IMG/VR virus record: IMGVR_UViG_3300017783_000228
Span: 1 to 22,670 of that record
DNA: 22,670 bases
Direction: 5' to 3' (one strand)
From: a virus
The translations under genes and the position numbers were made by a program. The notes beneath the pieces are model-generated. The model made no database searches. It was not told the origin of the DNA and worked only from the letters and a program-made list of their open reading frames with translations. The stretch's first letter is position 1; the number at the start of each line of letters is the position of its first letter. Of this stretch, positions 2,889-15,301 are shown in pieces.

Positions 2889-3689
2889 ATGGACAACAAC
2901 GAATTTAAAACTCCTATGGAAAGTATTGATACTTCAGCTTCTCCTTCTTTAGACTTACCCCCTCAGATACAAGCTTTAGTAGACATGCCTGAACAAGGAA
3001 ACTTTGATCTACCACAAAACCAAACAGCTACATATCAAGAAGGTGGTATGGTGCAACCAGCTGGTATACAAATGCAACAACAAGGCCCAAGGGATAGTAG
3101 AGTTATTGATGCAGAAATTAATCAAATGGCATCACAGAATCCAGAAGTTATAGCTAGAATTAGAGCGGGTATAGAAGCAGGTTTACAAACAGGTGAACTA
3201 AACATGGAAGAACTAAACATGGCAGTTGAGTTAGCAAAAGTTGTATTACAAAACCCTGCTATGTATCCACAGATTAGACAGTTTGCTATACAAAAAGGCT
3301 TAGCTACAGAACAAGACTTACCTGTTGAGTATGATGAAGGTTTAGTTATTGCATTAATTACAGCAGGAAAAGCAATGGACGCTGATGTACAGTTTCAGCC
3401 AGCTCAACAAATGAAAGATGGCGGGCTACTAGAAGTACCTCAAGGTAATATGGGTCTATCTAAATTACCTGAGAGCGTAAGAAATAAAATGGGCTACATG
3501 CAAGATGGTGGCGTATTGAAAGGACCAGCACATAACGATGGTGGTATACCAGTTAAAGTAGCTGGCGTTAACAACGCTGAGATGGAAGGCGGCGAGTACG
3601 TTATACCTAAGAAAGTTGTTATGGCTAAAGGCACAGAATTTTTTGATAAGATGCTAGCTAACTATGAGGATAAGCCAGATGTTACATGA
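2889..3689 (+). CDS. Phage virion-region protein with repeated D/E-G-G motifs
   Basis: This protein has 266 residues. The N-terminal 70 residues are Pro/Gln-rich and low in complexity. Residues of about 75-150 look helical (M-N-Q-M-A-S-Q-N-P-E, then E-E-L-N-M-A-V-E-L-A). The C-terminal third has repeated turn motifs: K-D-G-G-L-L, Q-D-G-G-V-L-K-G-P and N-D-G-G-I-P-V-K-V, after an earlier Q-E-G-G-M near residue 53. It ends in an A-E-M-E-G-G-E-Y-V-I-P-K segment followed by K-G-T-E-F-F. Glycine-turn plus G-E-Y/F-V-I-P endings occur in several phage structural proteins whose role is not settled. A GGGATAAT stretch precedes the ATG. The next gene starts inside its last 11 bases. A virion role is inferred from context only. 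Confidence 0.65.
   Translation: MDNNEFKTPMESIDTSASPSLDLPPQIQALVDMPEQGNFDLPQNQTATYQEGGMVQPAGIQMQQQGPRDSRVIDAEINQMASQNPEVIARIRAGIEAGLQTGELNMEELNMAVELAKVVLQNPAMYPQIRQFAIQKGLATEQDLPVEYDEGLVIALITAGKAMDADVQFQPAQQMKDGGLLEVPQGNMGLSKLPESVRNKMGYMQDGGVLKGPAHNDGGIPVKVAGVNNAEMEGGEYVIPKKVVMAKGTEFFDKMLANYEDKPDVT
3667..3670 (+). promoter_or_regulatory. Shine-Dalgarno site (AGGA) deciding the start of the GNAT-like gene
   Basis: AGGA lies 8 bases before the ATG at 3679, whereas the upstream in-frame ATG at 3664 has no purine-rich sequence before it. I therefore place the start at 3679, inside the end of the preceding gene. Confidence 0.5.
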
Positions 3690-4149
3690 GGTAAAAAAAG
3701 AAGAACTTAAATACGAACCTCAATTATTATCATCGAAAGAGCTATTAGATAAATACTGGGGTCAATGCACACCGCTATTTCAAAAATGTATTGATAAACA
3801 AATGGACGGAGAGCTAGGCATAGAAGATATATACTCTAAAGCTTTAAAAGGTGAAATGTTTATTATAGCAGTTAAGAATGATAGCACTGAAATACCTGAC
3901 GTAAAGTTAGCTTTGGCATTAGAATTAGTATATTATCCAAAGTATACAGCTATGAATGTAGCAGCTTTAGGTGGTAAAGATTTAAAAAATATGATTAGCA
4001 TGTTCTGGAAACATGTTTGCGGTTGGGCAAAGATTTGCGGGATAAAAAAGATGGAGTGTTCTGTACATCCAGCGATGCAAAGAGTTCTAGAAAATGTTGG
4101 GTTTAAGCAACAATACATTAAACTAAAGCAAGATTTATCGGAGGGTTAA
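3679..4149 (+). CDS. GNAT-like protein in the T7 gp13 (internal virion protein A) position
   Basis: This protein has 156 residues from the ATG at 3679; an in-frame ATG at 3664 lacks a ribosome-binding site. The second half has the shape of a GNAT acyltransferase fold. A strand region (F-I-I-A-V-K, then L-A-L-A-L-E-L-V-Y-Y) leads to a loop ending in G-G-K-D-L, a helix (M-I-S-M-F-W-K-H-V-C-G-W-A), and the ending M-E-C-S-V-H-P-A-M-Q-R-V-L-E-N-V-G-F, which resembles the typical 'R-x-L-x-x-x-G-F' end of GNAT proteins. T7 gp13 ends in a similar R-F-L-K-T-I-G-A segment and also sits just before the gp14-15-16 genes. Whether it keeps acyltransferase activity cannot be judged; the acetyl-CoA-binding R/Q-x-x-G-x-G/A loop is not clear. 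Gene order makes a virion-assembly role the better guess. Confidence 0.6.
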   Translation: MLHEVKKEELKYEPQLLSSKELLDKYWGQCTPLFQKCIDKQMDGELGIEDIYSKALKGEMFIIAVKNDSTEIPDVKLALALELVYYPKYTAMNVAALGGKDLKNMISMFWKHVCGWAKICGIKKMECSVHPAMQRVLENVGFKQQYIKLKQDLSEG

Positions 4150-5511
4150 ATGTCTACAGAATTAAATCCATTAGCAGTTTCAATTAAAAATTACAGTCAA
4201 CACACTATACATCCATTGCATCCGACAATGCATGGTGGAAGCGTAGGTAGAGTCATTGGGGTAGTAGCAGCAATAGCAATACCCATAGCCGCACCTACAA
4301 TTGCTGCGTCACTAGGTGTGTCTGCGGCTGTGTCCACTGCAACAGGAATTGCGGCTGGGGCTATTACTACAGGAATTGGTAGTGCAATTACAGGTGCGGC
4401 TATGGGTGCTATATCGGCGGCTGTTACAGGTCAATCAATATCCAGAGGTGCTTTAACAGGTGGTTTAACAGCTGGTTTAGCTGGTGGTATACAAGAATAT
4501 ATGAATCCAGGGTCGCTTACTACAGCTACTACAGGAGAGCAGATAGTATCAGCAGGACCAAATGTAAATCCAACTGCTGCTACACCAGCAGAACAGATAT
4601 TTCCAACAAGCACTGGTCCAGGTGGGTTAACAACAGCAGATCTTGGAGTTCCATCAAGTTTAGGTGCACCAGGAGTACAAACCGCAGTTGGAAGAAGTGC
4701 AGCAGCAGAAGCAACTGGTAAAACTTTAACAGATGTAATAAAAAGTACGGGTGAAAAAATTTATGATAAAGTAACTAGTCCAGATGTTTTAGCTTCGGCA
4801 ACACTACAAGCTGTAGGGCAACTTACTGCATCAGCTATGGTACCTGAAGCAGGCCTTCCTGGTTTCTCACCTGAAGAACAAGAACTAGTAGAAGCTAGAA
4901 GACAAGAACTAGAAGAATTAAAAACTAGAGATATTGAGAAATACAACCAGCAGATAGAATTATCTAAACAATATCTAACTCAAGCTGGTTTTGTAGACCC
5001 TAACTACTACGCATTACAAAGTGCTAATAGGTCACTAGTTTTAGGTGCTCGTCAGGATAGAGAGCAAAGGGCAAGAGATGCTTTTGACCCTCTAGGAGAC
5101 GGCAGAACCGCTGGTGATCAATCTAGATTAGATATAGCTAGACAAAAAGCAAGACAAGAAGCTTTTGATACAGGGTTTTTACAAGGTGTAGGTTTACAAA
5201 ACCAATACCTAAATGCGTCAAGCACTGCACTACCAACTAGCAATCCTAATTACGCAGCTGGTTTAGTGGGATTACAGAATACTTTTGAGACAGCTAGACA
5301 AGAAGGAGATAAAGACAGGACTCTTATTTATGAAAACCTAGCTGGTTTAAATACTACAACAGGTAGAGATGAAGAAGAACAGAAAAAAATAGATGATGAG
5401 ATTGCAATGGTAGGTCGTCAGTCACAAACTATGATAAATGATGCAGACGAAAACATAAGACCGTTGTTAGGTACTAATCAGTATAACGCAGGACTTATTA
5501 GAAACACATGA
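4150..5511 (+). CDS. Internal virion protein with membrane-active N-terminus, T7 gp14 position
   Basis: This protein has 453 residues, with a strong GGAGGG ribosome-binding site 4 bases before the ATG. Residues of about 32-105 form a long Gly/Ala/Ile-rich hydrophobic stretch (G-V-V-A-A-I-A-I-P-I-A-A, then A-I-T-G-A-A-M-G-A-I-S-A-A) able to span or insert in membrane. Residues of about 240-285 are a charged coiled coil (E-L-V-E-A-R-R-Q-E-L-E-E-L-K). The C-terminal part is helical and Arg/Gln/Asp-rich (R-Q-D-R-E-Q-R-A-R-D-A-F). Hydrophobic N-terminus plus coiled coil, followed by two larger coiled-coil proteins, is what T7 gp14 shows; gp14 forms an outer-membrane channel during DNA ejection. 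It is much longer than T7 gp14 (about 196 residues). The role is inferred from layout. The last codons overlap the next start (ATGA). Confidence 0.6.
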   Translation: MSTELNPLAVSIKNYSQHTIHPLHPTMHGGSVGRVIGVVAAIAIPIAAPTIAASLGVSAAVSTATGIAAGAITTGIGSAITGAAMGAISAAVTGQSISRGALTGGLTAGLAGGIQEYMNPGSLTTATTGEQIVSAGPNVNPTAATPAEQIFPTSTGPGGLTTADLGVPSSLGAPGVQTAVGRSAAAEATGKTLTDVIKSTGEKIYDKVTSPDVLASATLQAVGQLTASAMVPEAGLPGFSPEEQELVEARRQELEELKTRDIEKYNQQIELSKQYLTQAGFVDPNYYALQSANRSLVLGARQDREQRARDAFDPLGDGRTAGDQSRLDIARQKARQEAFDTGFLQGVGLQNQYLNASSTALPTSNPNYAAGLVGLQNTFETARQEGDKDRTLIYENLAGLNTTTGRDEEEQKKIDDEIAMVGRQSQTMINDADENIRPLLGTNQYNAGLIRNT

Positions 5512-7268
5512 GTATATTTAAAACAGGCTTAACATTAAGCCCAGATGCTTATCTAAGAGGTGCTAAGTCTGCAACTGATTTAAGAGCATTACAAGACGCT
5601 AATCAAAGACGTATAGATGCTACAGAAGTTCTTGAAAGAACTGAAGCCAAACGAGGTGATTTTGTAAACCAAGCTCCAGATTTATCTGCTCCTGACTCAG
5701 CAGGCTTGCGAAGGATGATGGATAGAAATGTTGACGGTAGTTATGGTACAGACGCTAGTGAAATTAAAGCTCCTGAATTTGAACCAAAAGCACCTACAGC
5801 TTCTGTAGCTGCTATTAAAACAGCAGATAACCCAATTCAAGCGGAAAAAGAAAGAGCAGGTTTAAAATTTTCTGGAGTATTTGGTGACTTTGCTTTTCCA
5901 GGACAAGACCCATCTAAATTTTTAAGGACTAAAGATGGCGATGCTATCTCTATGTATGATTACTATGCACCTAGTTTTTTAGGTGGAGGTCAGCAACCTT
6001 TTGACCAAACACGAGGAGGGTATTTTACTCCAGGTGCGGGAGCTGCTAGTCAGCAATTTTCAACAGATTATGCACCTGAAGTTGGTTTTAATCCTGTTAA
6101 CCCAAAGACTGTGCCTTCTGGAACAGATTCAACTATTAATAGAAATACACTAGATGATAGAAATTACAAAAGAATGGATAACTTAATATCTCCTGAACTT
6201 AGAACGGGAGCTATAGAACAAGGTATTGCTGATAGAGCAGGTATTTTGTATGAAAATGAGAACAGAGCAAAAAGAGAATACGAACGAAAGCTAAAAGATT
6301 TTCAAGAAAAAACTCAAGTAACAATAGATAATACAGGTAGAGTTACGAAAGCTGATTCCGAAGGTGAGTCTACTGGTGTAGAAGTTGGTAGGAGAAGAGC
6401 TGATAGTCTACTTTTGTTTGAAAGAGAGTCGCTAGCATCTGGTATTGAATTAGAGCAAGCAATAAGAAAAGCAACTAATGAAAAAATACTTAATGATAAT
6501 TACTTTAAAAAAGCAGCTGACGTTGGAAAAGAAGTAAAAGATGTTTTAGAAGACAGAAGAGACTTAGCCTTTAGTGCTCAGCAGTACTATGCTTTAGCAC
6601 AAGTAGCTTTAAACACTGGCGGTGTAGAAGATTACAGAAAAAATATGGAGATTGCAGAGGCATATAAAAGTGTTTTAAAGAAAACAGATGACCAGATAGT
6701 TTATCTTGAAGGTATGCAATCATTAAACGAATTAAAACAAGGGAGAACGGGGCGTGCTTCTAAAGTTGCTAGTCTTTATAACGGCGTAGATACACAAATA
6801 ATTAAAAGAGATGACGGTAAGTTTGATATAGTTCAGATGGGTGATGATGGATTACCTACAACTATAGAAGCTGCTTTAAGTCTTGATAATGTATCTAAAA
6901 CATTAAGACTTTTATTTGATAGCAAGCACAGAAGTGCATTAACTCAAGCAAATATTGAAAATGCTAAATTAGCATTTAAGAGCCAATTAAAAACAAAAGA
7001 AGAATTAAGCAAGATTTTAGCTGAAACTAAGAAAGAAGCTATGTTAAAAAGATATGACGCACTATTAGACGATATGAAGAGGGCTGATCCAAAGCTTGAA
7101 TTTAGTACATTTGACGGTAAAGTATTTGTTAAAAGAGGTGAAGCGTTATCAATAATAAAAGAAGTAGAGTACCTAAATTTAAATGGAAAACCAGAAACAC
7201 GACTTGTAGAAGAATCATTAACACCAGGGTCTACAGGATATGAACGAGCATATAGTACTACTCAGTAG
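5508..7268 (+). CDS. Internal/ejection-type virion protein, T7 gp15 position
   Basis: This protein has 586 residues and starts in the ATGA overlap with the preceding gene. No enzymatic motif is visible. Residues of about 60-210 are a flexible region rich in Pro, Gly, Asp and Ser with many aromatic residues. From about 230 to the end the protein is largely charged helix and coiled coil, for example N-E-N-R-A-K-R-E-Y-E-R-K-L-K-D-F near 250 and L-A-F-S-A-Q-Q-Y-Y-A-L-A near 350, then Lys/Glu-rich helices at 480-530. It has no signal peptide or membrane span. Its place between a membrane-active protein and the giant protein corresponds to T7 gp15, which with gp14 and gp16 builds the ejection conduit. 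Homology to gp15 cannot be shown from sequence reading alone; structure comparison would be needed. Confidence 0.55.
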   Translation: MSIFKTGLTLSPDAYLRGAKSATDLRALQDANQRRIDATEVLERTEAKRGDFVNQAPDLSAPDSAGLRRMMDRNVDGSYGTDASEIKAPEFEPKAPTASVAAIKTADNPIQAEKERAGLKFSGVFGDFAFPGQDPSKFLRTKDGDAISMYDYYAPSFLGGGQQPFDQTRGGYFTPGAGAASQQFSTDYAPEVGFNPVNPKTVPSGTDSTINRNTLDDRNYKRMDNLISPELRTGAIEQGIADRAGILYENENRAKREYERKLKDFQEKTQVTIDNTGRVTKADSEGESTGVEVGRRRADSLLLFERESLASGIELEQAIRKATNEKILNDNYFKKAADVGKEVKDVLEDRRDLAFSAQQYYALAQVALNTGGVEDYRKNMEIAEAYKSVLKKTDDQIVYLEGMQSLNELKQGRTGRASKVASLYNGVDTQIIKRDDGKFDIVQMGDDGLPTTIEAALSLDNVSKTLRLLFDSKHRSALTQANIENAKLAFKSQLKTKEELSKILAETKKEAMLKRYDALLDDMKRADPKLEFSTFDGKVFVKRGEALSIIKEVEYLNLNGKPETRLVEESLTPGSTGYERAYSTTQ

Positions 7269-7276
7269 GGAGAGTC

Positions 7277-10200
7277 ATGGTTGATTCTACTAGAACAACA
7301 AGTACAAGATTAGGCCTAGGAGATTTAGAGCCACTTAATAGTGGTAGCATTGGTGAAGCACAACAGATAGATGTACCAGGGAATCCTTTTGTTGTTAGAG
7401 ATTCAGCTGGTCTTATAGACCAAGAAATAAGTAACTTAAATAGACTTCAAGACGTAGTCACAGATCCGTCACAATTTGAAGAACCTGAGCAAGTAGACTT
7501 AGGCCCTCAAGTATTATTTAGTCCATCAACTAAAAAATTATTTATCAACGGTGCTACTATGGACGTTGATGACTATCAGTCAGCACTTGATTCAAAAGAA
7601 TATTTAAATAGACCTGCAGCTTCAGCTCCGATGGATGTAGCACAAGACTGGATTAAAGTAAGTCCTGAAAGTTTTACTACTTATATACAAAGTATAAAGA
7701 ATCCTACTACAAGTAATCTAATGGCTAGAAACTTTGGGATTGGTGTTGATAATTTAAAGCTACTTGTTGGTAGAGGCTTACAATTCTACGGTAAAGAAGA
7801 GACAGGTAAAGAGTGGGTTGACGAAGCACTAGCAGATTTATATAAAAACCAACCATTCCAAAGAGAATTTCAAAACGAAACAGGTGAGTTTGTATCTAAC
7901 GGTTTAGTCGACTGGTTTGTAGCAAACTTAGCACAACAAGGCCCTATGATCTTAGAGTCTATAGCTGTAGCTTTAGCTGGTGGACTAGCAGGTGGACTAG
8001 CTGGTGGGGGTGCAAACCCATTTACAGCATTTGGTGGAACTGTGTCAGCATTGATGGGTAAAGAATCATTTAAGCAAGGTGTATTAGCTGCTGCTAAAAA
8101 ATATTCTTTAAATCAACCAATGACTGCTGGTGAGAAAAAACTTCTTCGTGAAGTATCAGGTATGGCTGGTGCAACAAAAGTTAAAAACGATGTTAAGTAT
8201 AACAATCCATTTACAGGTAAAAAGAATAGAGCTGATAGAGATGATGCTTTAGAATATGCTGGGTTTAAATTTGCAGAAAAAGCTGGTAGAGCACAAGGTC
8301 GTATAGGTGGTGCAGCGAGTACATCTATACTTGGAGCTCAACAATTAGGTCAAGCCGATATATACGGTGAAGTATTAGAGACTGGTGTTGGTGATAGAGG
8401 TACAGCTTTTCTAGGTTCGTTCCCTTATGCTGCAGCTGAAGTTATACCTGAGTTTTTCTTAGCGGGTAAAGTACTAGGTTTAAATCCAGCTAAGATGAAG
8501 ACAGGTGCTGATGTATTAAAACGTGGTCCTAAAAATATTTTTAGAAGAGCTGGTGAAGGTATTGCAGTTGGTGGTGCACTAGAAGGTGCTACTGAATTAG
8601 CACAAGAAAGTATACTACTAGGTGGCACAGACCAGCTAGGAGATGCTGGTACTTACAGAAGATTACTCAATGCGTTTGCAGCAGGCTTTGCAATTGGTGG
8701 TCCTATCGGTGGTATTGCAAATCTTAAAACAGATAAGACTGCTGATATATTAAATCCAGAAGGTAATAAAGAACCAGAGCCAACTAAACCTAAAACAGAA
8801 CCAGAGCCACCTGTAGGAACACAAGGTGAATTATTTGGTCCTGAAGTAACTTCAAGAACTAGAGACATTAGGAGAAATCCAACAGGAGTTCCAGAACCTA
8901 CTCCACCTATACCTCCAGTTCCTCCTCAACAATTAGATTTATTTGATGATAATCCAGTTGCACCACAACCTGTTCCCACACAACCAGAGGTATCTCCAGA
9001 CCAATTAGAATTAGATTTAGCTGGACAACAACCTATACCAACAGGGCAAGGAAGTTTACTTACACCAACAGGTCGTGCTAGAAATACAAGAAGGCAACAG
9101 CCTACTCCTGTAGCAGCTGCAGCACCTGTGCCTGTATCTAATTTAAATATTGCTGATACTGTGAATGCACCTATACCTGCACCTAATCCGATTTTACAAA
9201 CAGTTCAAGCTGGGCAGGGGACCCCTACACTCGACAGTACTCAAACAACTTCTGCTCAGCCCGAAATTAAACCAGAGACAGATATAAACAATGATTTATA
9301 TAAATTAAAAACAGGTAGAACTTTAAGTACTCTTGACCAACAAGAGTTAATAGCTCAAAGAGATAGACTAATAGGTAAGAAAAATTTAAAGACTAGAGAA
9401 GACAAAGACCTTCAAGCTATTACAGCTGCTATTAGTAGGCGTGAAGCTAATATGACTACAACAGCAGAACAAGATAATAGACTGCAACAAATTGTTAATG
9501 AACAAAAACAAAGAGATGAATTAAATAAACAAAATGCAAAAATTTTAAAACAAGCTGAAAGAAATGAAACTAAACGTAAGAAAGCAGAAGAAAAACTAGA
9601 AGCTGAAAGAGTAAAACAAGCCGAAGCACAAACTAAAATATTAGAAAATCAAGCTGCCGCTACAGCTGCAGCAGTAACAACAGGAGGTGCACAAGATGCC
9701 AATCAAGAGCAAAGCCCAGCTGAAGTGGCTGCAGAAGAATCGACCACAGATAGCGGAGGAGTTGCTGAGAGAAACCAGCAAGAATCAGAAGCTCAAGCTA
9801 CCGCAGAAAGTCAAGAAGACCAAGGACAAGTTGAAGATGGAAGCACGGTTACGAGACAAGAATCGAAAGCAGAACAGCTTAAAAGGGGTAGGCAAGATCG
9901 CAAAGAACAAGTTGCTGAATCAACCAATAGGTCGAGGGAAAATCGTGTAGCAACGCCTAAGCCTACTAAAGATCCAGCTACTGTGTGGGCATCTTTAGGT
10001 ACAGTTTTAAGTTACGATGCTGTATCACCAGAACTTAAACAACAGTTTGAAAGTGACCCATCATTTACAAAGCCTGAAATAAACAAGGCTAGACTACAAA
10101 GTAAATACAGCCAGCTCGCATTAAAAGAGTTTGATGAGCAGAAAGAAGGGCTATCAAATGCTGAGATTATAATAGATGCACAAGCTGAGATAGAAGGCTT

Positions 10201-13200
10201 ACAAGGTGAGACTACGTCAGACGTAGATAAACTTAGAGATGCTATAGCAGAGTTAGTTACCATTGGATACTTCGGTGATAATGCTAACCCAAATGCAAAT
10301 AGAGTTTTATTAAATAATAAATCAGAACGTCAGTTTGTTACCGACTTCTTACTAAATACACAGTTTACCGACCAGCAGCTAGACATTATAAGAGAAGAGT
10401 TTATAGCTGCGGCTATGCTAAAAGATAATTTAAGTATGCAAACAAAAGGAGTACCGTCTCAATGGGTTGGCATAGCTGAGAGACTAGATGCTATGGATGC
10501 AATTTTAAATCAAATGGGTAGTAGAGTTAGAAACAAACCTGCTAAATACCAAGCAGACCAAGGACCAGCTACAGATAAAGTTGGTCAAGACGACCAAAGT
10601 GCTACAAATCTAAATGAAGAAGTGGCTTCTAATAGATTAGTTGATTTAATAACTGAACATATTAATGGTAAGACTACTTCAATTACAAACTTAACTGTTA
10701 CTAGTGGTCAGAATAAAGGAGCTAAAAATTCTAAAATTGTTGAGCTAGAAAATTTATTTGCTGGTTCAGACCCAGGCTTTATTGTATCCAAAGGATTAAC
10801 ACTAGGAGATTTCTTTGACAAAGATGGTAACTTAAATTTAGGTAAATCAAATATAGATGGTCGTGAAAGATTTGTACCTAAACCGATAGACAAAGATGCA
10901 GGCCCTACTACTCAAGAGATAATAGATGAGGCTGATTCTAATACAGGTAGAAACTATAGGTATGATAGTGGACAAGAAATAAAAAACCCAGTACCTAAAG
11001 GTAAAGCAGAACTAATAGTTAAACAGATATTAAAAAAATTCAAAACAAAACCAACAGTAACTGTAGTTAGAAACAAACAAGAGCTGCGAGAAACTAATCC
11101 TAAACTATATGAAAGAGCAGCTGCAGCTAGAGACGACTTTGAAACTGTAAAAGCTTCAGGCTATTCTGTTGGCGATCAGATAATAATATTTACAGACTTT
11201 GTTAAAGATGAGCAAACGCTACGAAGTATTGTAGGCCATGAAGCATTAGGACATTTTGGTTTTAGTGCGTTTGTACCAAGGGCAAAATTAAAATTAATAC
11301 TTGATGATATATATCAAAGTGATCCAGCAATAAGAGCTTTGTCTGACCAGCGTATGAATAATGGTGAGGAGAGATACGAAGCTATAGAAGAAGTACTAGC
11401 TGATTATGCTTCGCATGTAGACTCTCACATACTCGCAAGATTTTGGAATGCAGTTAAAAACTTTATGCGTGATGTTTTTGGTAGAGAGTACCAAGATGAC
11501 ATGACAAGGTACTTAGTATTTCAATCTCGTAATAATCTACGCACGGGTGGTAGTGGTGTTGTATCAGTACAACAGATGGTTAAGAATTTAGAAAGATTAA
11601 AAAATGAAAGTACATATGGTCGTTACAATGCAGAGTCTAGTTCGGCTGCGGCTTATAAAAGTTTAACTAATCAAATAATAACACTTCGAGGAGAGCCTGG
11701 CGGTCTTCTTGGATATAAGTCTTGGTGGAACTCAGCTAAAAGAAAAGGTAAACAATTAACTGAAGGTGATGCATCAAGTTGGTTTGGTAAAGTACTAGAA
11801 GAATTTCAAACATTAGATAACATAGCATTGCGTAGTGAGGGCCTGTCCAAAATCTTTAGTTTGTTCCAAGGGCAAACAGCTAGAACAAGAAAGTTTCAAC
11901 AGATATATGCGGACATGACTAAGTTTACTCACAGTCTAGATAACTCTGTGTTAAATAAACTAGGCATCACTGATGGACCAACTCAACAAGAACTGATTCA
12001 GGCTGGAGAACTACTAGCTTTCTTTGCTTTATATAGAAGCAAAGTTCCTGCAACAAGAAATGAAAATGCAATTAACAATGCTGAGTCTTTAATTACAACT
12101 AACTCTATAGGTGAAAATGTTATAAATGAAGCAGCATTTGAAAGAATGAAAGCTGAAGGTATGATGACTAAAGAAGAATTAGCAGCAGGTTTTGAAGTTA
12201 CTTTAGATATACTACAAGACGGCACAGAAAATGTTAATGGTAATAAGCTAAACTACAAACCTAACTTTGTAGTGACTGATAGAATCTATACAATATTTGA
12301 AGAGAATAGAAATGCTGTAAACGAAGCAGCAAAAGATTTACTAGAGTCAAACTTAGAAGCAACTATATCAGAAAGGCAAGACATACTAAGTATTGTAAAA
12401 GACTTTGCAGAAAATAAAAGGGGTATAGGTGCTAGTGCTCAAGATCAAGCTGCGGCTACAGTAATAGTAAAAAAATACCAAGAGCTATATTCTGAAAATG
12501 CAAAACTAGAAGGTGTAGGTATAACTTATGACCCTGAGTCTCAGAAAAATGCTGAGTTATTTCTAAGAGATGCTAACCGTGCTTTGTGGGAACGAAAAAA
12601 ACTTGATGATTGGATTGCTGGTGACACTACAGAAGTTGGTATATTTAAAGTAAAAGGCACTGAAGATTTTACTGATGTAGTTAATAGCTTGCAACAACTT
12701 CATGAAGTATATGATGGTGAAAGATCAGGTGCTGACCAAGTTACTAAAACAATAGAAAATTTATTACTACTAGATTTAAAAAATGTAAACAATGAGTTCA
12801 ATGCTAAGCGTACAATACTCGGTGGGTATGTACCATTTACTAGACGTGGTAACTATCAAGTTACATTAAGAGCATTTGATGATAATGATAACGAAATAGA
12901 ATTAGATTCCCACACCAAAAATGTACTACCGTATTACCAAGTTGATTCTAAACAAGATGCAAGAGAGCTTTTTGATAGTCTTAAAGATGATTTTAAAGAC
13001 ACCAAATATAAATTTAAAGATAAAAACCTACAGGATGTAGAAGTTAATTTAAAACCAGAAACCAGTGAAGTTAGTTCTAGTGCACCACTATCCTCTGCTA
13101 TGAATTTAAATGAGTTTACAAGTATTCTTGTAAGGTTAAATGTAAATCTTAAACCAGAGCAAATGAAAAAAGTAACTACTGCTTTAACTAAACAATCAGA

Positions 13201-15301
13201 AAGAGCAAGAAAAAGTTTACAACGTTCAGGTACTGCTGGTTGGGATGCAGACGTAGTAAGAAGTGTATCAGAACATTTAGAGACTATGGCACATGCAGCT
13301 GGTAAAACTTTTTACTCACATAAGCTTAACAAATACACTACAGATGAAAAGCTTTGGGTTGGAAATAGAGATAAACTTAATAGACTTAAAGAAAGAATGG
13401 AAAAAGTTGAAGCTACAGGTAGCGATGAACAAATTAAAATAGCACAACAGCAATACGATAGTTATGCTAACCAGTATAGATACTCAGCTGGATTAACAGA
13501 CAGAACAATAACAGTTTATAAAGGTAGTGGTAAAAATAGAGAAGCAGTACAAGTAAAAACTGAAGGTCAAGGTAAAAGATATAGGTCTGTTGCTGGCGGG
13601 TTATTAGATTTTTATGGTAAAGCAGGAAACATAGATGTATCTACAGAAGACCTGTTATCAGGTGAGGCAGGCTCATTTATAAAACTACTAACAGTAACTT
13701 CTCAACTTGGTGGATCTGTTGCTACAGGTTTTGTTAATACTATATCAATGGTAAGCCATAGTATTCCATACCTATCTACATATAATGCTAAGACTGGTTA
13801 CGGTGGTGGGTTTGGCTTAACTAAATCTGCTGGTGCTATGACTAGAGCACTAAGACATATGAAGAACTTTAAGTTAGAGACACTAACTCACATGCAAGAA
13901 CTAACTGCAAAAGATTCTAAAGGTAATCCGACACCAGAAGCTTTAGCATTACAAACTAAGTACGGTATAACTCAAGACGAAGCTCAAGTATTACTTGAAG
14001 CTACTGAACAAGGTGTACTTCAAGCCGCACAGTTTAATGCTCTTGTTGGTACAGCTAGAGGTGGCTTAATGGCTAATAAAAATTTAGCTGGTGTAGTTAG
14101 AGGATGGATGAAAGTGTTCTCTTATACAGAGCAATTAAATAGAAGAACAACTTTCTTAGCAGCTTATAGATTACAAAGAGATAAGCTACAAGCAGCTGGA
14201 GATTTAACACAAAATGAGATACAGAAATCTGCAGAAGAGTTTGCGATAAGAGCTGTCAATACATCTCAGGGTGAGTATGGAATGTTTAATAGACCTGCTA
14301 TGGCTCGTGGTAATGTTCTTCAATACATCTTTATGTATAAACAATTTGTAATTATTACTGTAGAGCTTATGAAAAACCTAGGTCGGAAAGAACAATTAGC
14401 TATGCTAACACTACTTGTTTTAATGTCAGGTCTAAAAGGATTACCATTTGCTGATGACATTACAGATTTAATTGATACTTTAACGCAGAAGTTTGGTTTC
14501 AAAACTGCAACCGTAGAAAAAAATGTTGTTGATTTTATAGAAGAGATAGCTCCTGGTGCATCTCCAATAGCCATGAGAGGTTTCTTAGATTATTTTCTTG
14601 GAGCTACCGTGTCTACAAGACTAGGCTTCGGTGATTTAATACCTCTGACAGGTGTAGGTAAAGCAGGTGCAGATCCTTGGCAAGAAGCAAAAAACTTTTT
14701 AGGGCCTGTATGGTCAGCTGGTGAGCAGACAGCAGGCACGTTGAGTCTAGTTGCAGCACAAGGTGCAGAGGCTATTGGTTTAAAATCTGATACAACCACT
14801 TGGACTGATGTTCTAAAGAACCAACCATTCGGTGCACTAAGAGGCGTAACAGATGGAATAGATTATGCAACTAGCGGACAGGTTACAAATAAAGAAGGCA
14901 AAGTAATAATGGATGATGTGTCTACATTGCAGACTGTATTTAGATTCTTAAACTTCTATCCAGCTGGGGCTACTTATCAAAATGATATAATAAGAATGAG
15001 TAAACAAACTGACGGCTTTGCTAAAGCAATTAAAAAATCATACACTGACGCTTGGGTAAAAGCTAAGATAAGTAAAGATAGAAAGGCTATGAGACAAATA
15101 GAAAGAGAAGTTAAAGAACATAACCAAGACCACAGAGGAACTGAGTTTGAGTTAAAACGCTGGTTACCTTCAGCACAAAGAGCATTCAAAGCTTGGTCAA
15201 TGCCAGCTGCTGAAAGGTATAAAAAGTTTGCACCTAAAAACATTAGACCTGAAACACAATTTTTAATGGACGCTTACGAACAAGCTATCAACGACCACTA
15301 A
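7277..15301 (+). CDS. Giant polyvalent internal virion protein with zincin-like metallopeptidase signature (T7 gp16 position)
   Basis: This 2674-residue protein follows a GGGAGAG ribosome-binding site. The N-terminus is mixed. Residues of about 225-260 are an Ala/Gly membrane-like stretch with G-G-L-A repeated, and 325-460 are helical, with A-A-E-V-I-P-E-F-F and L-E-G-A-T-E-L-A-Q-E, typical of phage polyvalent proteins. Residues 498-660 form a Pro/Gln linker, 670-795 a Lys/Glu coiled coil, and 800-895 a low-complexity linker holding a nested gene. A zincin-like domain follows (about 1240-1390): a V-V-R-N lead-in, a strand I-I-I-F-T-D, H-E-A-L-G-H (H1321, E1322, H1326), then E1371-E1372-V-L-A-D. 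HExxGH plus a downstream EExxA(D/E) is the ligand pattern of dipeptidyl-peptidase III-like zincins. The C-terminal 400 residues carry E-Q-L-N-R-R, F-N-R-P, M-Y-K-Q-F and R-L-G-F-G-D-L-I-P, a conserved module of phage polyvalent proteins. I see no lytic transglycosylase motif like that of T7 gp16. The role is probably DNA ejection or host-cell entry; the peptidase substrate is unknown. It is the last gene of the late block. Confidence 0.75.
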   Translation: MVDSTRTTSTRLGLGDLEPLNSGSIGEAQQIDVPGNPFVVRDSAGLIDQEISNLNRLQDVVTDPSQFEEPEQVDLGPQVLFSPSTKKLFINGATMDVDDYQSALDSKEYLNRPAASAPMDVAQDWIKVSPESFTTYIQSIKNPTTSNLMARNFGIGVDNLKLLVGRGLQFYGKEETGKEWVDEALADLYKNQPFQREFQNETGEFVSNGLVDWFVANLAQQGPMILESIAVALAGGLAGGLAGGGANPFTAFGGTVSALMGKESFKQGVLAAAKKYSLNQPMTAGEKKLLREVSGMAGATKVKNDVKYNNPFTGKKNRADRDDALEYAGFKFAEKAGRAQGRIGGAASTSILGAQQLGQADIYGEVLETGVGDRGTAFLGSFPYAAAEVIPEFFLAGKVLGLNPAKMKTGADVLKRGPKNIFRRAGEGIAVGGALEGATELAQESILLGGTDQLGDAGTYRRLLNAFAAGFAIGGPIGGIANLKTDKTADILNPEGNKEPEPTKPKTEPEPPVGTQGELFGPEVTSRTRDIRRNPTGVPEPTPPIPPVPPQQLDLFDDNPVAPQPVPTQPEVSPDQLELDLAGQQPIPTGQGSLLTPTGRARNTRRQQPTPVAAAAPVPVSNLNIADTVNAPIPAPNPILQTVQAGQGTPTLDSTQTTSAQPEIKPETDINNDLYKLKTGRTLSTLDQQELIAQRDRLIGKKNLKTREDKDLQAITAAISRREANMTTTAEQDNRLQQIVNEQKQRDELNKQNAKILKQAERNETKRKKAEEKLEAERVKQAEAQTKILENQAAATAAAVTTGGAQDANQEQSPAEVAAEESTTDSGGVAERNQQESEAQATAESQEDQGQVEDGSTVTRQESKAEQLKRGRQDRKEQVAESTNRSRENRVATPKPTKDPATVWASLGTVLSYDAVSPELKQQFESDPSFTKPEINKARLQSKYSQLALKEFDEQKEGLSNAEIIIDAQAEIEGLQGETTSDVDKLRDAIAELVTIGYFGDNANPNANRVLLNNKSERQFVTDFLLNTQFTDQQLDIIREEFIAAAMLKDNLSMQTKGVPSQWVGIAERLDAMDAILNQMGSRVRNKPAKYQADQGPATDKVGQDDQSATNLNEEVASNRLVDLITEHINGKTTSITNLTVTSGQNKGAKNSKIVELENLFAGSDPGFIVSKGLTLGDFFDKDGNLNLGKSNIDGRERFVPKPIDKDAGPTTQEIIDEADSNTGRNYRYDSGQEIKNPVPKGKAELIVKQILKKFKTKPTVTVVRNKQELRETNPKLYERAAAARDDFETVKASGYSVGDQIIIFTDFVKDEQTLRSIVGHEALGHFGFSAFVPRAKLKLILDDIYQSDPAIRALSDQRMNNGEERYEAIEEVLADYASHVDSHILARFWNAVKNFMRDVFGREYQDDMTRYLVFQSRNNLRTGGSGVVSVQQMVKNLERLKNESTYGRYNAESSSAAAYKSLTNQIITLRGEPGGLLGYKSWWNSAKRKGKQLTEGDASSWFGKVLEEFQTLDNIALRSEGLSKIFSLFQGQTARTRKFQQIYADMTKFTHSLDNSVLNKLGITDGPTQQELIQAGELLAFFALYRSKVPATRNENAINNAESLITTNSIGENVINEAAFERMKAEGMMTKEELAAGFEVTLDILQDGTENVNGNKLNYKPNFVVTDRIYTIFEENRNAVNEAAKDLLESNLEATISERQDILSIVKDFAENKRGIGASAQDQAAATVIVKKYQELYSENAKLEGVGITYDPESQKNAELFLRDANRALWERKKLDDWIAGDTTEVGIFKVKGTEDFTDVVNSLQQLHEVYDGERSGADQVTKTIENLLLLDLKNVNNEFNAKRTILGGYVPFTRRGNYQVTLRAFDDNDNEIELDSHTKNVLPYYQVDSKQDARELFDSLKDDFKDTKYKFKDKNLQDVEVNLKPETSEVSSSAPLSSAMNLNEFTSILVRLNVNLKPEQMKKVTTALTKQSERARKSLQRSGTAGWDADVVRSVSEHLETMAHAAGKTFYSHKLNKYTTDEKLWVGNRDKLNRLKERMEKVEATGSDEQIKIAQQQYDSYANQYRYSAGLTDRTITVYKGSGKNREAVQVKTEGQGKRYRSVAGGLLDFYGKAGNIDVSTEDLLSGEAGSFIKLLTVTSQLGGSVATGFVNTISMVSHSIPYLSTYNAKTGYGGGFGLTKSAGAMTRALRHMKNFKLETLTHMQELTAKDSKGNPTPEALALQTKYGITQDEAQVLLEATEQGVLQAAQFNALVGTARGGLMANKNLAGVVRGWMKVFSYTEQLNRRTTFLAAYRLQRDKLQAAGDLTQNEIQKSAEEFAIRAVNTSQGEYGMFNRPAMARGNVLQYIFMYKQFVIITVELMKNLGRKEQLAMLTLLVLMSGLKGLPFADDITDLIDTLTQKFGFKTATVEKNVVDFIEEIAPGASPIAMRGFLDYFLGATVSTRLGFGDLIPLTGVGKAGADPWQEAKNFLGPVWSAGEQTAGTLSLVAAQGAEAIGLKSDTTTWTDVLKNQPFGALRGVTDGIDYATSGQVTNKEGKVIMDDVSTLQTVFRFLNFYPAGATYQNDIIRMSKQTDGFAKAIKKSYTDAWVKAKISKDRKAMRQIEREVKEHNQDHRGTEFELKRWLPSAQRAFKAWSMPAAERYKKFAPKNIRPETQFLMDAYEQAINDH
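9682..9688 (+). promoter_or_regulatory. Strong internal Shine-Dalgarno site (AGGAGGT) for the nested gene
   Basis: AGGAGGT sits 7 bases before the out-of-frame ATG at 9696, inside the 2674-residue gene. It is a near-perfect match to the anti-Shine-Dalgarno sequence and better than the sites of most genes in this window. A GTG at 9687 in the same frame overlaps the site and is therefore unlikely to be the start. Confidence 0.6.
9696..9950 (+). CDS. Nested (overprinted) KSKAQ-type small basic phage protein
   Basis: This 84-residue protein lies entirely inside the 2674-residue gene, in the +1 frame, with its own AGGAGGT site. It begins M-P-I-K-S-K-A-Q-L-K-W-L, continues K-N-R-P-Q-I-A-E-E-L and then K-L-P-Q-K-V, and ends in a very Lys/Arg-rich tail. 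From memory, small phage proteins with K-S-K-A-Q-x-x-W/F, then N-x-P-x-I/M-A-x-x-W/F, then L-P-x-K-V are common and usually have their own locus; their function is unknown. The enclosing frame is a low-complexity Glu/Gln/Ser/Ala linker here, which would tolerate a second coding frame. Counter-argument: GAA/CAA-rich sequence gives Lys-rich ORFs in the +1 frame by chance, so charge alone is no evidence. The specific motif order and the ribosome-binding site are what support a real gene. Confidence 0.6.
   Translation: MPIKSKAQLKWLQKNRPQIAEELLRETSKNQKLKLPQKVKKTKDKLKMEARLRDKNRKQNSLKGVGKIAKNKLLNQPIGRGKIV

Follow-up and report, generated by a model that had tools for sequence, protein, structure and literature searches.

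A small gene with its own ribosome-binding site very likely lies out of frame in the linker of a giant phage gene

The stretch of DNA analysed here, referred to as the window, is an entire virus record of 22,670 bases. It contains a giant gene in whose +1 frame an 84-codon open reading frame (ORF) with its own Shine-Dalgarno (SD) sequence is found. The small protein is assigned below to a family termed SKAQ, and the place that it occupies in the giant gene is termed the slot. The following features are relevant:

145-2538, + strand: upstream gene with a match to phrog_511 (internal virion protein; E 4e-112)
7277-15301, + strand: giant host gene, an ORF of 2674 aa whose C-terminal part matches phrog_11358 and DarB-like/PLxRFG giants of isolated phages
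9680-9960, no strand assigned: slot or seam of the giant, occupied in relatives by SKAQ, by a PHROG 2423-type gene or by neither of them; L169 and L133 have two genes in place of the giant, divided at this point
9682-9688, + strand: SD sequence of the nested gene, AGGAGGT, separated from the ATG by 7 bases (9689-9695)
9696-9950, + strand: nested small gene of the SKAQ family, 84 aa, net basic, supported by the ORF, homologues and a dual-coding signature
9698-9949, + strand: the same DNA in the frame of the giant, a low-complexity hydrophilic linker that changes freely, as judged from the host-frame translation and change counts

The giant protein matches phrog_11358 with an E-value of 7.8e-54, and tblastn searches detect similar giants in 55 phage records, the resemblance being restricted to the C-terminal 14-20% (about 500 aa) at 23-30% identity. 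From this C-terminal part and its position, the giant is classified as a polyvalent or DarB-like protein. A sequence-only reading of the window had called it an ejection protein; injection together with the DNA is inferred from the late-gene context. Downstream of the slot, the giant protein displays a GHEALGH stretch, which we take to resemble the metallopeptidase HExxGH motif.

The small gene starts with the ATG at 9696, ends with the TAG at 9948-9950 and encodes 84 residues in the +1 frame relative to the giant gene. The 84-codon ORF in this frame, the spacing of 7 bases to AGGAGGT and the residues reported in the sequence-only reading all held exactly. In 2000 synonymous recodings of the host segment, generated with the giant's own codon usage, the 84-codon frame survives in only 0.45%. 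The same test on 38 unique nested giants leaves a mean of 12.6% of the frames open (highest value 62%), and since the recoded frame often stays open, an open frame alone is weak evidence for some of these giants. The predicted structure of the 84 residues is all-helical, with a mean pLDDT of 77.8, a pTM of 0.43 and modelled helices at residues 6-15, 17-26, 29-33 and 43-74. A structural search of the PDB with the small-protein models gave no match at an E-value of 0.001 or better. As a single query, the 84-aa protein yielded nothing usable in PHROGs (no match at E up to 1), Pfam and NCBIfam or among 50,697 phage records, and no nuclease or recombinase match to the small protein was obtained in Pfam, PHROG, NCBIfam or PDB.

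A scan of IMG/VR with the small protein of the window recovered 10 relatives, and a profile scan confirmed at least 91 SKAQ sequences, 80 of which were kept. Aligned relatives are 28-99% identical to the window protein, in which the N-terminal family motif MP.KSKAQ..W...N.P..A is present; M1, S5, Q8 and P17 are invariant in both alignments (A1 and A5), and A20 is invariant in A5. One of eight pattern matches in genome contigs (L098) gave no match to the family. The claim that the motif order matches known small phage proteins held only via distant family members, for which matches to PHROG 1375 were obtained: L008 (6.6e-7), L012 (4.9e-4), L016 (6.4e-4), L009 (7.1e-4), L058 (8.9e-4), L169 (1.7e-3) and L064 (5.6e-3). 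The PHROG 1375 profile does not match the window protein or its near relatives L004 and L006, and the membership of the window protein in this group of unknown function runs through the more distant SKAQ members. In comparison to PHROG 1375, the basic C-terminal part of the window protein is longer.

With repeated contigs taken out, the analysis classed 132 SKAQ loci. The small gene is found in giants of the window type (40 loci), in hosts at the scaffold position (49 loci, ORFs of about 290-440 aa), in six other long hosts (L010, L012, L058, L064, L100 and L169), at the 5' end of a terminase ORF (2 loci) and without a host ORF of at least 200 aa (35 loci). Two of the hostless loci, L039 and L079, are scaffold-type ORFs cut by contig ends, and three giant-nested copies with a GTG start (L132, L163 and L178) were left out of this table. 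The 393-aa host of L016 lies between a portal gene (phrog_6547, 5e-156) and a virion structural protein gene (phrog_13704, 2e-96) and is read as a scaffold-position host because this is the usual site of the scaffold gene. No nested gene was found in the scaffold-position homologue of the isolates Panino and elemoF or of the assembled genome ctfjg026. Among the other hosts, blastp detects no similarity to the window giant for those of L012, L058, L010 and L100, and the L064 host resembles it at the C-terminus only. The relative frame is identical in all 95 nested copies that were classed. The host-equivalent frame is open for 38 of 38 unique giant-nested SKAQ proteins versus 0 of 31 unique stand-alone ones, the latter count excluding the two cut scaffold pieces. 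Annotated stand-alone SKAQ genes exist in phage 023Pt_psg01, within a run of small genes from the connector gene to GroES, and in phage FlowerPower, between a peptidase and a holin; given the FlowerPower context, a role in the head cannot be uniform.

In the shared frame relation, the third codon position of the giant is the second of the small gene, and the third position of the small gene is the first of the giant. The window was compared with L103, which is 69% identical over the host protein. Within the overlap, 22/15/6 of 83 codons differ at positions 1/2/3 of the giant, and outside it the corresponding difference rates are 0.215/0.156/0.331. The position-1/position-3 ratio of 3.29 in the overlap is equalled by none of the 240 other windows of this comparison, and suppression of host-synonymous change in this pair is confined to the overlap. 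The overlap is the whole-giant extreme of this ratio in 17 of 19 SKAQ pairs, which share members and are therefore not independent. The two remaining pairs lack the signature: L129/L146 has a ratio of 0.80 (reached by 132 of 219 windows), and L122/L138 has just 7 changes (71 of 225 windows reach its ratio). For 94 giant pairs whose small proteins are 55-97% identical, 1520 synonymous and 2179 non-synonymous codon changes were counted in the small frame, compared with 347 synonymous and 3374 non-synonymous changes in the host frame. These counts indicate purifying selection on the small frame, with the giant's linker following. Across 46 scaffold-type genes, the host differs at its wobble position by 0.07-0.18 over the first three 15-codon windows within the overlap, compared with 0.37-0.61 in windows beyond its downstream end. 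The ORF had been proposed to be a complete gene, a reading that would have been undermined by the absence of homologues outside this locus, by stops in the +1 frame of relatives or by unreduced synonymous variation of the giant over the overlap. All three checks were favourable: homologues were found, some of them as stand-alone genes, the frame is open in close and distant relatives, and synonymous variation drops. Even without protein or ribosome data, the 84-codon nested ORF is very probably a real gene.

The idea that the recurrent frame is simply the one most easily kept open was refuted. When giant-nested small proteins are encoded by random synonymous codons, the other frame opens more often (0.125 vs 0.003), and stop codons do not explain the recurrence. 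The charge per residue of the host-frame overlap is -0.29 in scaffold hosts and -0.06 in giants, while that of the small protein is +0.21 to +0.24. A compositional cause, in which a lysine-rich gene reads as an acidic or polar linker in the other frame, fits these charges and remains possible. As a control, the scaffold-position gene of Maribacter phage Panino contains a glutamate-rich acidic stretch that gives a K-rich +1 ORF of 54 aa (L202:6621-6782); this ORF has no SKAQ profile match and probably arises from composition alone.

Start signals were compared with those of control sites. An SD match of at least 5 nt precedes 41 of 43 SKAQ copies nested in hosts longer than 1400 aa, compared with 7% of 3277 control ATGs drawn from the corresponding frame of these hosts. 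The nested start region is also less structured, with a mean of -6.9 kcal/mol vs -9.9 kcal/mol at 1290 control starts, which were not composition-matched. The start codon is conserved as ATG, or as GTG with an SD-like sequence in L132, L163 and L178, and stand-alone relatives begin at the same residue as nested ones. A first formulation, that each giant holds exactly one SD-led out-of-frame ORF, proved too strong, as additional ones are listed for the giants of L143, L166 and L178; moreover, some genuine nested genes have a GTG start or miss the SD pattern. No SD match is present in 44 of 48 scaffold-nested copies. The portal adjoining one scaffold-type host is most similar to those of Flavobacterium, Cellulophaga and Maribacter phages and of one assembled phage. 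This bacterial group often does without SD sequences, and the missing SD would fit such SD-poor host bacteria, a suggestion that is put forward tentatively.

These signals bear on a rival explanation in which ribosomes frameshift from the giant gene and produce an N-terminal half with a basic tail, without internal initiation. In its favour, SD-like sequences can stimulate frameshifting, and in phage PBC5 the segment of a second nested family, MNLNNW (see below), lies in frame at the end of the upstream half. Against it stand the conserved start codon, the common first residue of stand-alone relatives and, in 28 of 43 nested copies, an in-frame stop no more than 12 codons before the start (4 codons in L007), which leaves little room for frameshifting. 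This rival is considered very unlikely.

The slot was followed through relatives of the giant. A C-terminal giant profile identified 80 giant loci (95 in all), 30 of which are 5'-truncated without a small-gene match, many being too short to show the slot. The counts cover 43 giant loci with the 5' end in view, some of them near-copies. SKAQ occupies the slot at 36 of the 43, in 35 cases inside the giant and in one (L169) in a split-off N-terminal half. A PHROG 2423-type basic gene is found in the same place and frame at four loci (L139, L155, L157 and L158; E-values of 2.3e-8 to 1e-7 for the three that were scanned), and neither small gene is present at three (L133, L148 and L161). Being absent from 7 of 43 loci, SKAQ is not indispensable. 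Among 23 whole records, 16 have SKAQ in a single copy each, and SKAQ is missing from the four records whose slot holds a PHROG 2423 gene; a weak PHROG 2423-type match was seen elsewhere in one of the SKAQ records (G018). Between L161 and L157/L158, the 1-kb flanks are 92-96% identical, and the cassette with its SD and ATG is swapped for an in-frame linker. L163, which stands beside L157/L158 on the giant tree, has the bases of L157 up to the SD, followed by a GTG-start SKAQ gene. On a tree of 51 giants, the slot state requires at least 11 changes, crowded in one 14-member clade, and SKAQ occurs to either side of the midpoint root. The slot is also the point at which the giant of L169 and L133 is divided into two genes. 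L002 and L003 differ by 2 codon changes in about 1790 codons downstream of the slot and by 0.11-0.16 per position upstream. Directly upstream of the SD, L001 and L007 contain additional sequence: stretches of about 100-240 aa in the giant's frame (L007 at about 9270-9990, L001 at about 9690-9985) that are missing in other relatives and may represent whole domains swapped in at the same seam.

Other giants were scanned for SD-led out-of-frame ORFs of at least 38 aa, using seven DarB/PLxRFG giant ORFs from six isolates, one of them 5'-cut. The giants of F116, Mel-JY34 and douglas 12A4 contain no such ORF. Two were found in the Y11 giant, the one that was checked having no PHROG match, and two in the Y7 giant, neither with a PHROG match below E 0.05. 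The longer +1 ORF of Pseudoalteromonas phage Y7 (98 aa; L206:3950-4243, + strand) has no relatives in the phage collection. The giant of Klebsiella phage SopranoGao holds one nested ORF of about 100 aa, the MNLNNW gene, which tblastn detects in 21 phage records corresponding to 12 distinct phages. Its frame relation is like that of SKAQ in 10 of 11 isolates examined. The exception is Sinorhizobium phage PBC5 (L215, 4001-4306), where MNLNNW is in frame at the end of the upstream gp22; here the giant consists of two annotated genes at MNLNNW, the host-equivalent frame is also open, and the arrangement could be a natural split or a frameshift in the record. In the gene tables of the 11 isolates, MNLNNW is never listed as a gene of its own. 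In Pseudomonas phage Itty13 (L213), long ORFs are annotated on the strand opposite to the open giant frame with the nested gene, and the strand was probably mis-called in this annotation.

In IMG/VR, an open host frame accompanies MNLNNW in 54 of 55 viral-contig loci, including those of PBC5 and other isolates; the lone exception, L310, is within a 245-aa open host frame and is probably a relic. Plasmids gave no MNLNNW match. The MNLNNW overlap is the extreme of its giant in 16 of 17 pairs, which share members, and the 17th has no changes in the overlap. An SD match of at least 4 nt precedes 47 of the 47 copies with ATG or GTG at the aligned start (at least 5 nt in 27), compared with about 30% of control ATGs taken from SKAQ giants; 8 of the 55 loci, and POI1126, have no ATG or GTG at the aligned residue. 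For the PHROG 2423 family, 80 loci were kept out of 373, of which 74 are hostless; the other six are nested and share the frame relation described above. In L251 and L252 (host at 3480-11087), a PHROG 2423-type gene lies in this frame inside an ORF of 2536 aa. The L251 ORF shows no blastp similarity to the giants compared, and the two loci may be a further and perhaps independent nesting. Two more clusters of SD-led +1 ORFs (L325:5032 onward and L325:4624 onward, + strand) are common to seven closely related DarB-type giants. Profile comparison gave no relation between SKAQ and the MNLNNW or PHROG 2423 types. At least three unrelated small families are nested in one relative frame in long phage genes.

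A conserved DNA or RNA element, for example for packaging or recombination, could be proposed instead, with the +1 frame open by chance and no small protein made. The break in similarity at the slot between L002 and L003 would agree with this. Against it, changes concentrate at the wobble position of the small frame in three unrelated proteins: difference rates at small-frame positions 1/2/3 are 0.253/0.189/0.364 for SKAQ, 0.045/0.045/0.203 for PHROG 2423 and 0.225/0.196/0.346 for MNLNNW. This explanation is all but excluded.

The sequence-only reading described the gene as overprinted, a wording that is corrected here: it implies birth inside the giant, yet about 33 family members stand alone. 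As a rival explanation, de novo overprinting would make the small frame new inside the giant, stand-alone copies having escaped later. It is supported by the presence of the nested gene in the giant family on both sides of the midpoint root, and by MNLNNW, with its almost always open host frame, its single exception likely to be a relic and its lack of plasmid matches; for that family, birth inside the giant is not excluded. However, hostless members are common (about 33 of 132 for SKAQ, 74 of 80 for PHROG 2423), nested SKAQ lineages are interspersed with stand-alone ones on a short and weakly supported small-protein tree, and the hosts of L012, L058, L010 and L100 lack blastp similarity to the window giant. 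Overprinting is regarded as unlikely for SKAQ. Since about 33 family members stand alone, the small frame looks old and the linker frame of the giant derived. The gene was probably engulfed rather than overprinted, a direction that rests on distribution, the tree being short and weakly supported.

A further possibility is that the small genes are selfish hitch-hikers whose loss would break the giant, without benefit to the phage; as to structure, this is compatible with the explanation preferred below. The turnover of the slot and the loci without SKAQ speak for it, as does an analogous hidden HNH endonuclease that has been described as selfish (PMC11855218). Against it are the lack of a nuclease or recombinase match, the single copy in each of 16 records and purifying selection on the small protein over deep divergence, and this reading is also judged unlikely.

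The best explanation, with a probability of roughly 0.86, is that an old SKAQ gene with its own ribosome-binding site occupies the +1 frame of the linker between two parts of the giant, its translation being inferred. Ribosomes would initiate at the internal SD on the giant's mRNA and produce a small, helical, basic protein in the late phase, and ribosomes translating the giant would read the same bases as a disordered linker. That the product is made, and that its synthesis is coupled to that of the giant, was already inference in the sequence-only reading and remains so. As to origin, the small gene would have stood between two genes, or been inserted at their seam, and the giant frame would have run through it; the slot may later have been refilled or emptied as a cassette. 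A putative role as a head-assembly or virion accessory factor, needed alongside head and ejection proteins, is only weakly indicated, from the neighbouring genes alone.

A bolder reading, toward which the evidence leans slightly, treats the linkers in giant phage proteins as gene slots of a general kind. Small genes would be lodged there together with their ribosome-binding sites, out of frame and always in one frame, whose host reading is a hydrophilic linker; they would be exchanged or lost as cassettes, and the slots would mark seams of giant-gene fusion. A conserved gene layer would be missing from the annotation of phages of many bacterial groups, long-sequenced isolates included. The customary explanation for nested same-strand genes is that the inner one arose anew within an older gene. 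Under the engulfment reading, old small genes occupy the linkers of giant genes and different small genes use the slot in turn, which hints at how giant modular proteins could fuse with a small gene between them and still keep it. Where a linker of a phage protein is variable, a second gene and not the host protein may be what shapes it. The arrangement is unannotated in the phage records examined, and cultivated phages appear to harbour conserved genes of this kind that are open to direct testing.

Nested genes of this kind were not found to be reported in the open-access literature searched; subscription papers were outside the scope, so their absence is unproven. The polyvalent and DarB-like proteins (PMC5512222) share with the present host a very long gene, a late region and a similar C-terminal part of about 500 aa; the word 'overlapping' is absent from the main text of that paper, and its relevant passages describe no nested genes. 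The relevant passages of the LASTA paper (PMC10052179) do not contain 'nested', 'PLxRFG' or 'DarB'. The iddB gene of phage P1, annotated inside the antirestriction gene ddrB, was considered as a parallel and rejected, as it lies on the strand opposite to ddrB. Gene E of phiX174 is similar in being a small gene wholly inside another, gene D, on the same strand and out of frame. E lies in the +1 frame of D. A review describes each overlap as presumably combining an ancestral frame with a de novo one that usually has no homologues (PMC8227390). SKAQ does not meet this description of a de novo frame: in contrast to the rule, the nested frames of SKAQ and PHROG 2423 have stand-alone homologues, and it is the outer frame that forms the free linker. 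Among published cases, the closest one found is the ShiLan domain and the Pacc40 gp60 insertion, an out-of-frame HNH endonuclease in phage methylases (PMC11855218). These cases differ in encoding an HNH endonuclease, in lacking a detectable ribosome-binding site and in a disjoint distribution that is ascribed to homing (PMC11855218), whereas SKAQ has no nuclease match, a strong SD in giants and conservation through a giant-gene family. The present genes further differ in involving several host genes and three or more unrelated families that share one relative frame. In both systems, a phage host gene contains a segment that its own frame reads through, and this segment holds an out-of-frame gene. 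The host-frame product of ShiLan/Pacc40 is predicted to be disordered or hairpin-like, and related phages have a gene similar to that of Pacc40 as a separate unit upstream of the host gene (PMC11855218). A further likeness to ShiLan, an in-frame host segment prone to gain and loss, is met by L157/L158 in comparison to L161.
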